DNA of 64,000 nt, taken from Trichocoleus desertorum ATA4-8-CV12. GTDB lineage: Bacteria > Cyanobacteriota > Cyanobacteriia > FACHB-46. The notes beneath the pieces are model-generated. The model did no database searches. It saw only the letters and a list, made by a program, of their open reading frames with translations, and was not told the DNA's origin. This document shows, piece by piece, positions 3,150 through 14,038 of this stretch; the stretch's first letter is position 1; the number at the start of each line of letters is the position of its first letter. Both the position numbers and the translations under genes were made by a program. Location of the stretch: the NCBI GenBank assembly GCA_019358975.1, contig JAHHIL010000016.1, positions 1-64,000 on the forward strand. Direction: 5' to 3'.

Positions 3150-3692
3150 ATGCACTATCGTCGTGCCACCACACCAGGAGCCACCTACTTCTTTACCGTT
3201 GTCACCTATCAACGGCAGAGAGTGTTTCATGTGCCTGAAACAATTGATTCATTACGGCAGGCTTTTCGCACCGTTAAAGCCACTCACCCGTTTACCATTG
3301 AGGCCATTGTCGTTCTTCCAGACCATCTGCATTGTGTTTGGTCTCTCCCGCCCGGTGATGCTGATTTTTCCACTCGCTGGCGATTGATCAAAACCACGTT
3401 TACTCGCGCTTGTCCTGAGCGGTACAAACGGCAGCGAAATGACTCTCGGCTCAATAAAAAGGAACAAGCGGTATGGCAGCGCCGCTTCTGGGAGCATCAA
3501 ATTCGAGATGAGCCGGATTTGATGCGCCATGTAGATTACATTCATTACAATCCGGTGCATCATCAGCTTGTCAAACACCCCAAGGATTGGCAGTATTCAA
3601 GTTTTCATGGGTATGTAAACAGAGGAATCTATGAGGTTGATTGGGGAGCGGAAGATACCCTGCTGCCCAAAGATACCATGAGATATGAATGA
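3150..3692 (+). CDS. REP-associated tyrosine transposase (RAYT, Y1 family), intact
   Basis: The start chosen is ATG 3150 (MHYRRATTPGATYFFTVVTY), the conserved beginning of RAYT proteins; a further in-frame ATG at 3114 lies in the repeat region. The HUH metal site is in VLPDHLHCVW, and the catalytic tyrosine region is YIHYNPVHH near residue 140. The 180-residue length is normal. RAYTs are single-copy domesticated IS200/IS605 relatives that recognise REP hairpins, and REP-like palindromes lie on both sides here. A damaged second copy is at 971-1339. Confidence 0.9.
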   Translation: MHYRRATTPGATYFFTVVTYQRQRVFHVPETIDSLRQAFRTVKATHPFTIEAIVVLPDHLHCVWSLPPGDADFSTRWRLIKTTFTRACPERYKRQRNDSRLNKKEQAVWQRRFWEHQIRDEPDLMRHVDYIHYNPVHHQLVKHPKDWQYSSFHGYVNRGIYEVDWGAEDTLLPKDTMRYE

Positions 3693-3713
3693 TGAATCGT
3701 GGATAGAGGGATG

Positions 3714-11861: not shown

Positions 11862-12602
11862 CTATAACAGCCACAACCCCATCGCGATCGCCACCACTCC
11901 TAACGTAATGTTGTCAATATCTGGAAATGGTAGAGCTTCTACAAGAGTTGCTACAAATGCGATCGCAGCAACGGCTCCTGTAGTGTTCATAAGATTGATA
12001 GGCGGCTGAAAGTGCCCCAGGTGATTAAAGAGAATTAGAAAGCCTAAGCCAAACCCAAAACTGCCCAAAAACATAGCCGTTGAGCCTGCCCAGCTTTTAT
12101 CGGGGCTAAAGGGTAGCTTGTGTTTGCCCAGCCGTCGTCCCACAATATCTGCTAAGCCATCACCGCCACACATCAGCATCAAAGCCAAAATGCCTATAGG
12201 AGAGTTGCGCCAGAACAACACTGTGCAGAGAATAAAGGCAATGCCGTAATACAACGGCCCGCGCAGAATTTCGGCTGGCTTGCCCTCACGGGTCATAGCT
12301 TGGACGGCGGCAGGGTCAGCAATCAGTTGGGTGCCAATGGCCAAAAACTGGAGGGTAATTGCAAGAGGTACCAGAGCTGCAAAATACCGCGCGATCGCCT
12401 GCTCGCTGTAGAGATGCCAGCAGAGGACAAACAACGGCCCCGTGCCAATATGAATAATTTTACGACTGAGTTTTTGTTCTAGCCAGCCTCGTTGCGCCAG
12501 CGTGTTTATTAGCTTGAGCCAACTGAGAGCGATCGCAAAGGTAACTGCCGTGGCCGCAATATCTTGAACGAGGGAATTAGCTAATAAATTACTCAATTCC
12601 AT
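11862..12602 (-). CDS. Phytol/dolichol kinase-like CTP-dependent membrane kinase
   Basis: 246 residues with about seven membrane segments. The conserved CTP-kinase region runs from GDGLADIVGRRLGKHKLPF to DKSWAGSTAMFLGSFG (about residues 145-180). The N-terminal RKIIHIGTGP is the usual second signature. The length matches VTE5-type phytol kinases of cyanobacteria, which recycle phytol released from chlorophyll into phytyl phosphate for tocopherol or chlorophyll. A dolichol or farnesol substrate is possible. Confidence 0.85.
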   Translation of the reverse strand: MELSNLLANSLVQDIAATAVTFAIALSWLKLINTLAQRGWLEQKLSRKIIHIGTGPLFVLCWHLYSEQAIARYFAALVPLAITLQFLAIGTQLIADPAAVQAMTREGKPAEILRGPLYYGIAFILCTVLFWRNSPIGILALMLMCGGDGLADIVGRRLGKHKLPFSPDKSWAGSTAMFLGSFGFGLGFLILFNHLGHFQPPINLMNTTGAVAAIAFVATLVEALPFPDIDNITLGVVAIAMGLWLL

Positions 12603-12660
12603 GCTTTAAATCAACAAACAACAGCATCCAGAATCGTTCCTTACAATAATCTCCTCCAAT

Positions 12661-12796
12661 AAGGTGAGCTTGCCTAGAGTTGTGCTGAAAAAAGATTTGA
12701 ACTAAATCTTTTTAGGGAAAGTATCAGCAACGAGGCTCTCTTTTAATCCAGAAGGGAGATATGAGAAACAGAATTGGATGCTGTTGTAAGTTTGGT
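12661..12796. repeat. Duplicated intergenic element, copy A
   Basis: Aligns with 12892-13030 over about 135 bases. Shared landmarks in order: AGGTGAGCTT/AGGTTGAGTTT, GAGTTGTGCTGA/GAGTTGGGCTGA, the near-identical TATCAGCAAC block, a short hairpin (here CTCTCTT/AAGGGAG), then AGAAACAG/AGAACCAG, GGATGC/AAATGC and GTAAGTTTGG/GTAATTTGGC. This copy also has a perfect hairpin AAAAAGATTT/AAATCTTTTT at 12689-12713. Strand of any transcript is not known. Confidence 0.6.
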
Positions 12797-12891
12797 TGAT
12801 AAATTCGCAAAGAACTTATTTGCAATCTGCATCGATTCGGAGACTGGACTACTTACGACCCAGAACGATTCTTGTGATTGGCTTTCCCACA

Positions 12892-13030
12892 TAGGTTGAG
12901 TTTACTTGGAGTTGGGCTGATGTAAGACTTCATTGAAGCGTAAATTTCAGTGAAACTATCAGCAACAGAGCTCCCATTTAAAGTGGAGAGAAAATACTAA
13001 GAACCAGTTTAAATGCAGCGGTAATTTGGC
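12892..13030. repeat. Duplicated intergenic element, copy B
   Basis: Partner of copy A, about 230 bases downstream in the same orientation. The hairpin after the TATCAGCAAC block is kept with different bases (CTCC, bulge, A paired with TGGAG), which is what a conserved RNA structure would show. The A/T hairpin of copy A is replaced by CTTCATTGAAG. Confidence 0.6.
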
Positions 13031-13196
13031 CCAGTAGATAAGATGAGGAATTAATTTTTGACCTCCTCTTGACGTGCAACGTAACGATTTACTCGTCTCA
13101 GAAGCTAATTAGCTTCTATTAACAGAATACTCCGATTTTGTAGCTTGGATGACAATGAAACCAAAGTTTACGATCGCGTGATTAAGCGCTCTAAAT

Positions 13197-13241
13197 TATG
13201 CCTAACTTGGGTTTGCCTAAGCTGAGTTTGCCTAACTTGGG
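13197..13241. repeat. 15-bp tandem repeat, three units
   Basis: Three near-identical units of TTTGCCTAACTTGGG (the middle one reads TTTGCCTAAGCTGAG). The third unit contains the stop codon of the glutamine amidotransferase gene and runs into a HIP1 site. Confidence 0.8.
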
Positions 13242-14038
13242 CGATCGCGAGTGGGTGTTGCAGCCGTCTCTGGTTTCAGGGGTAAGCCATCTCGAAAGAC
13301 CAGCAGTTCTCCTGGCTGAAAGGAAGTCCAAACTTCGTTATCGGTCAGCGGCACAGTGGCAATAATCGCAACGCGATCGCGAGGGGTGGTCAGCTCCTGA
13401 AAATCTACGGTGAGGTCAGCATCAATGAGATGGGCTGCTGCAAAGGGAGCTTGCCGCACGATGTAGCAAAGTTTGGTAGAGCAGTGGGCAAAGAAATGTT
13501 CGCCATCAGAGAGCAAGTAGTTGAAGGTGCCTTGCTGGGCGATCGTGCCAGTGACTTCTTGCAGGACTGGATAAAGTTGCTCTAAAGGTGGTTTGCCCTC
13601 TGGAAAAGCTTGCCGCAAAGTATTCATAATCAAGCAAAAAGCCCGCTCACTGTCGGTTTGGCCTACGGGGCGATAAAAGCCACTGTTTTCGGGATAAAAG
13701 TCGGGTAAGTCGCCGTTGTGAGCCATGATCCAATACCGCCCCCACAGTTCCCGGCGGAAGGGATGACAGTTTTCTAGTGCCACAACCCCAAACGTCGCTT
13801 TGCGGATATGGGCGATCACATGGGTGGATTTGATTGGATACTGCCGCACCAGCTCAGCTACTGGGGAGGTAGAGGAAGGTTTTTCATCTAGAAATAAACG
13901 ACACCCTAACCCCTCAAAGAAGGCAATTCCCCAACCATCTTGGTGTTCATCGGTTTTGCCACCGCGCGCTGAAAAACCTTCAAATGAAAAGCAGATATCG
14001 GTGGGTACGTTGCAATTCATTCCCAACAGTTGGCACAT
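13232..14038 (-). CDS. Class II glutamine amidotransferase (YafJ-like)
   Basis: 268 residues. The N-terminal nucleophile is C2 (MCQLLGMNCN). Other Ntn-hydrolase landmarks follow: DGWGIAFFEG near residue 34, HVIAHIRKAT near 73, the NCHPF motif with the MAHNGDL strand near 108. No synthase domain is fused, so it is a stand-alone YafJ-type glutaminase/amidohydrolase. Substrate is unknown; members release ammonia or act on gamma-glutamyl groups. The stop codon lies in a tandem repeat. Confidence 0.85.
   Translation of the reverse strand: MCQLLGMNCNVPTDICFSFEGFSARGGKTDEHQDGWGIAFFEGLGCRLFLDEKPSSTSPVAELVRQYPIKSTHVIAHIRKATFGVVALENCHPFRRELWGRYWIMAHNGDLPDFYPENSGFYRPVGQTDSERAFCLIMNTLRQAFPEGKPPLEQLYPVLQEVTGTIAQQGTFNYLLSDGEHFFAHCSTKLCYIVRQAPFAAAHLIDADLTVDFQELTTPRDRVAIIATVPLTDNEVWTSFQPGELLVFRDGLPLKPETAATPTRDRPS

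Follow-up and report, generated by a model that had tools for sequence, protein, structure and literature searches.

A large structured RNA of Cyanobacteriia encoded on the minus strand of a 629-bp intergenic region in Trichocoleus desertorum

What occupies the long gap between two protein genes of Trichocoleus desertorum ATA4-8-CV12, in which two related segments lie one after the other? In the window (the whole stretch of DNA analysed here, 64,000 nucleotides), positions 12603 to 13231 form a 629-bp intergenic region flanked by two minus-strand genes, from the start of one to the stop of the other, with no ORF of at least 60 aa inside. An earlier note on this DNA had delimited the gap correctly and had read it as two aligned segments of about 135 bases, by implication on the plus strand, possibly tandem small RNA genes or a duplicated regulatory element of no known family. 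We found that the gap holds one full and one partial copy of a structured minus-strand RNA family that is real and ancient. The features of the locus are collected in Table 1.

Table 1. Features of the RNA array and its flanking genes, in window coordinates
Feature	Position	Strand	Evidence or remark
CTP_transf_1 gene, phytol/dolichol-kinase-like, 246 aa	11862..12602	minus	Pfam PF01148 (marginally over the cut-off); follows the RNA array directly
Class-II glutamine amidotransferase gene, 268 aa	13232..14038	minus	Pfam PF13230; directly before the RNA array
Full-length RNA copy (copy B plus 5' domain)	12850..13172	minus	R2 match 1-331, 211.5 bits, E 2e-59 (R2 training sequence)
Second 3' domain alone (copy A, to ~12830)	12607..12820	minus	R2 match 119-331, 100.9 bits, E 2.5e-27 (left out of the R2 training set)
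5' arm of closing helix P1, copy A, CAACAGCATCCA on RNA strand	12775..12786	minus	Inverted repeat I1
3' arm of P1, copy A, TGGATGCTGTTG on RNA strand	12619..12630	minus	Inverted repeat I1; helix 1 covariation
Inner-helix arm, copy A, TATCAGCAAC plus strand, GTTGCTGATA on RNA	12722..12731	minus	Pairs with TCAGCACAAC (RNA strand)
Inner-helix arm, copy B, TATCAGCAAC plus strand, GTTGCTGATA on RNA	12957..12966	minus	Helices 6-7 covary
AT-rich apical hairpin of copy A with perfect pairing; variable rod tip	12688..12713	minus	
GGAGGU (RNA strand) of 5' domain, Shine-Dalgarno-like, in or beside hairpin loop	13061..13066	minus	GAGG invariant, 19 sequences
5'-domain hairpin AGAAGCTAATTAGCTTCT	13100..13117	minus	GAAGC/GCUUC hairpin kept with compensatory changes
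Conserved AAACUUU, RNA 5' terminus	13163..13169	minus	Cross-species sequence conservation begins here

The similarity of the two segments is well above chance: positions 12616-12830 and 12851-13066 gave a local alignment score of 92, against 41-44 for the best of 2000 dinucleotide shuffles. The alignment seen before thus stands, with segments of ~190-215 nt rather than ~135. The shared block is exact in both copies, the perfect AT hairpin of copy A is present, and a hairpin built from different bases sits at the equivalent position of each copy. A candidate third copy at 13060-13200 was rejected, its similarity being no better than chance; that region is the 5' domain described below.

The consensus fold of six copies (A and B from three genomes) contained seven base pairs changed on both sides. 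From these six copies only, that is from the window genus alone, we built a covariance model (R1), so that the search proposed for the two copies was carried out and homologues were found across Cyanobacteriia, among them full-length R1 matches, down to E 4e-15, in further cyanobacterial families. Past the R1 matches, conservation runs on for ~110 nt, beyond ACCTCC (plus strand) to AAAGTTTA. Because of this extension, the unit is ~330 nt and not 135. In the window, the complete element has its RNA 5' end at ~13172 and its 3' end at ~12850, an extent that came from the R1 matches and the cross-species comparison. The proposal of tandem small RNA genes holds for a duplicated structured RNA with strong covariation; it fails for the equality of the copies, since one is complete and the other is a second 3' domain. 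As a side observation, copy A also matches R1, a plus-strand model, weakly on the opposite strand (12573-12793, minus), because the rod is nearly palindromic.

With a second, full-length covariance model of 331 positions (R2), matches were found in 179 of 390 Cyanobacteriia genomes (46% of the sample) and in 93 of 160 genera. The best E values were 1e-79 among training members and about 1e-40 in families outside the training. R2 gave zero matches on control DNA (519 kb, 68 loci, nearly all from other bacteria and archaea), a single weak partial match (22.6 bits) in 38 genomes from other classes of the phylum, and blastn of plasmids and phages for the RNA returned none. An exact-pattern scan of 85,000 genomes was discarded: its 68 matches were all due to chance and none carried an R2 match; the four cyanobacterial ones had no R1 match, and the pattern was too strict.

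The RNA is ~325-335 nt long and consists of a 5' and a 3' domain. The 3' domain is a single long interrupted rod (P1, P2, P3, an inner helix and a tip variable in sequence and length), closed by the 12-13-bp helix P1 and followed by a short U-run. P1 reads CAACAGCAyCCA/UGGrUGCUGUUG, and inward of it come a UUGA/UCAA helix, P2 (UUUCCU/AGGAAA) and P3 (GGAG/CUCC); the shared block forms one side of the inner helix. The 5' domain starts with AAACUUU and contains a conserved GAAGC/GCUUC hairpin and an exposed GGAGGU, in which GAGG(U) is nearly invariant. The fold of this domain is less certain because R2 holds no pairs there. The window array may be partly degenerate, given the weak P1 of copy B and the missing 5' domain of copy A.

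Across 101 sequences, 34 of 37 base pairs were changed on both sides, including 12 of the 13 pairs of P1 (helix 1), and helices 6-7 covary too. Cells with double changes numbered 456; shuffles averaged 120, and slid controls never exceeded 101. Of all cells, 93% were paired (no more than 52% when slid). Folding z-scores were -5.1 and -2.2 for two members and -2.9 for the window tandem.

On which strand does this RNA lie? When 25 members were aligned by sequence only, both strands yielded the same helices, and the C-A mismatches of the plus strand are G-U pairs on the minus strand. The alifold consensus energy of this alignment was -63 kcal/mol on the minus strand and -49 kcal/mol on the plus. 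Among the 101 sequences we counted 320 GU and 61 AC cells; that alignment was fitted to the minus-strand R2, which favours GU there, and the 25-member alignment is free of such bias. Given this asymmetry, we assign the RNA to the minus strand. The first reading, which implied tandem small RNAs on the plus strand, is hardly tenable: single sequences do fold plausibly in that direction, but the AC mismatches turn into GU pairs on the other strand, where the consensus energy is also better.

The earlier note counted a lack of conservation in close relatives among the refuting observations; such conservation was found. The entire arrangement is retained in two congeners, with identities of 94.6 and 91.4% that exceed those of the flanking coding genes (92.3-92.6 and 87.9-88.1%, respectively). 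Three 15-bp direct repeats (TGCCTAACTTGGGTT) lie at 13199-13243, ending at the amidotransferase stop codon; the congeners have shorter versions or none.

Beyond the genus, a full copy accompanied by an extra 3' domain recurs in three genomes of other families at unrelated loci (G130, L024; G042, L031; G137, L216). In the 3'-domain tree, the window copies group with those of G130 and G134 (support 0.81), adjoin G017 and G304 without strong support, and stand apart from the copy of their own genome that is linked to the gene called X here. This third copy of the window genome is on contig C9, where gene X also lies (L166, 5377-6141). At another locus (L038, 1393-3173), three near-identical full-length RNAs occur within 1.8 kb, duplicated along with their flanks. 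Near an RNA copy at L148, two IsrR (RF01419) antisense RNAs were seen ~1 kb apart (2487-2664 and 3524-3701), which suggests two isiA-like genes there.

Copy number ranges from 1 to at least 4 per genome (the best four candidates per genome were scored) at varied loci. Together with the sharp ends and the lineage-specific duplications, this could recall a MITE-like mobile element with hairpins that function as DNA. We consider that very improbable, since target-site duplications are absent (direct repeats in the flanks of 94 copies were as expected, 4.28 vs. 4.30), and the tolerance of GU but not AC pairs is a mark of RNA. Moreover, the deep conservation and the constant place beside X in many families argue against such an element.

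Gene order was compared around 101 matches taken from the best-scoring ones, close relatives included, so its counts do not represent independent events: 40 of ~97 copies lie directly upstream of gene X, all 40 co-directional, at most X loci 15-57 nt from its start codon. In the window, the 3' end of copy A lies 4 nt ahead of the CTP_transf_1 start codon. These positions favor a purely cis-regulatory leader, riboswitch- or attenuator-like, acting on X ancestrally and on the CTP_transf gene in the window. We regard this as possible but rather unlikely: among the 57 non-X copies, the downstream gene is co-directional in 28 and opposite in 29, with unrelated families, convergent genes come as near as 27 nt, and 33 genomes carry the RNA but not X. 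A cis-element of one gene only was rejected as unsupported for the non-X copies.

The surroundings of the non-X copies fit a transcribed unit with its own or a read-through promoter, stopping at its 3' end. Where the upstream gene diverges, the gap to it measures 166 nt or more in 19 of 20 cases; where it is co-directional, the gap is often below 110 nt. After P1, a T-run of at least 4 occurs within 16 nt in 38 of 101 sequences (consensus GUUUUAAA), compared with 6 of 101 in a control stretch. No promoter box at a fixed distance is conserved among the copies, and a consensus scan for a promoter found none. Nor does the RNA strand point to a small protein gene: the longest ATG ORF has a median of 14 aa and reaches at least 40 aa in 6 of 101. 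From the sequence, we infer that the RNA is transcribed.

The X protein (255 aa) is present in 226 of the 390 Cyanobacteriia genomes, with 79% mean column identity, and matched no family in Pfam or NCBIfam. Its N-terminal ~95 residues are highly conserved. The structure model is mediocre (pLDDT 64), with low confidence over the first ~96 residues, and in this model the C-terminal half looks like TIR/DNPH1-type N-glycosidase folds. When plasmids were searched with X by tblastn, partial TIR-like matches alone were retrieved, at 24-30% identity.

Could X be the protein partner of the RNA, binding the rod in a ribonucleoprotein such as Ro60-Y RNA? The tight linkage at the 40 loci would fit, as would the co-occurrence in the 390 genomes (both in 146, RNA only in 33, X only in 80, neither in 131; Fisher p 1e-18, with genomes counted regardless of kinship). 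We find such a complex unlikely, because those 80 and 33 genomes have one without the other detected and because the predicted C-terminal half of X resembles a nucleotide-binding fold of TIR/N-glycosidase type, unlike an RNA-binding protein. At the X-only loci examined, the RNA was absent. From these loci and the two one-sided counts, neither X nor the RNA requires the other.

Our preferred reading, to which we give a probability of roughly 60%, is an ancient large minus-strand RNA that is a leader of X terminating before it, with paralogues that stand alone and act in trans. Where a co-directional gene lies ahead, the RNA would follow in the 3' region of that gene; where a divergent gene lies ahead, there would be room for its own promoter. 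The transcript would end at P1 and the U-run. At the commonest locus, the RNA would form the 5' leader of X, and P1 with its U-run could stop transcription before X. Paralogous copies elsewhere, those of the window included, would be stand-alone RNAs acting in trans, most likely with a protein bound at the GGAGGU loop and at the rod's conserved internal loops.

Our confidence in any single molecular function is much lower than that in the reading as a whole. One speculative and unlikely extension is a ~330-nt class, at least as old as the ancestor of many lineages, that might serve as a trans regulator or scaffold: its GGAGGU, mimicking a Shine-Dalgarno sequence, might titrate a ribosome- or RNA-binding protein, and the founding copy might attenuate the TIR-like X.

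As to known families, the earlier note knew of none for this element, and Rfam 15 likewise gave no match over it that reached a family's gathering score, in the window, at 19 member loci or at 13 further loci; the matches at those loci, away from the element, were one tRNA and IsrR. Even at E of at most 5, the window region returned two weak chance matches to animal families. A likeness in shape is seen in 6S RNA (RF00013), a stand-alone bacterial ncRNA that also forms a long rod-like hairpin with internal loops. However, the present RNA is ~330 nt long, has an extra 5' domain and does not match the 6S model; genuine 6S RNAs occur at separate loci in four member genomes (G000, G128, G014 and G148).

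T-box attenuator leaders and SreA-type trans-acting SAM riboswitch leaders are also useful comparison systems. The present RNA would share with them a structured leader near a start codon, an end made of stem and U-run, and copies free of a downstream gene. The differences are that no known aptamer or antiterminator was identified here and that the closing helix spans ~190 nt. OLE, HEARO, raiA and Y RNA resemble it as large, strongly covarying, lineage-restricted bacterial RNAs, but the RNA described here has no Rfam match to them and no fixed protein partner.

Another cyanobacterial ncRNA in tandem copies is NsiR1, which has ~60 nt and forms many short repeats near hetF. The window, with one full and one partial copy of a ~330-nt unit, is set apart from it by description. 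NsiR1 is presented in PMC4734099, citing Ionescu et al. 2010, as a tandem sRNA array of heterocystous cyanobacteria. In the open literature we found no description of the present RNA; subscription papers, outside this scope, may hold one.

The RNA appears to belong to no known family and to be new at the RNA-family level; a large structured ncRNA as such is no new principle. A common RNA of photosynthetic bacteria, present in nearly half of the sampled genomes and absent from Rfam 15, thus appears to have been overlooked. Its size, its covariation, its presence in 46% of the sampled Cyanobacteriia genomes and its often conserved position indicate that it is probably important to the cell. With one recurrent neighbor gene, and several copies per genome in some lineages, it offers cyanobacterial RNA biology a new object that is directly testable.
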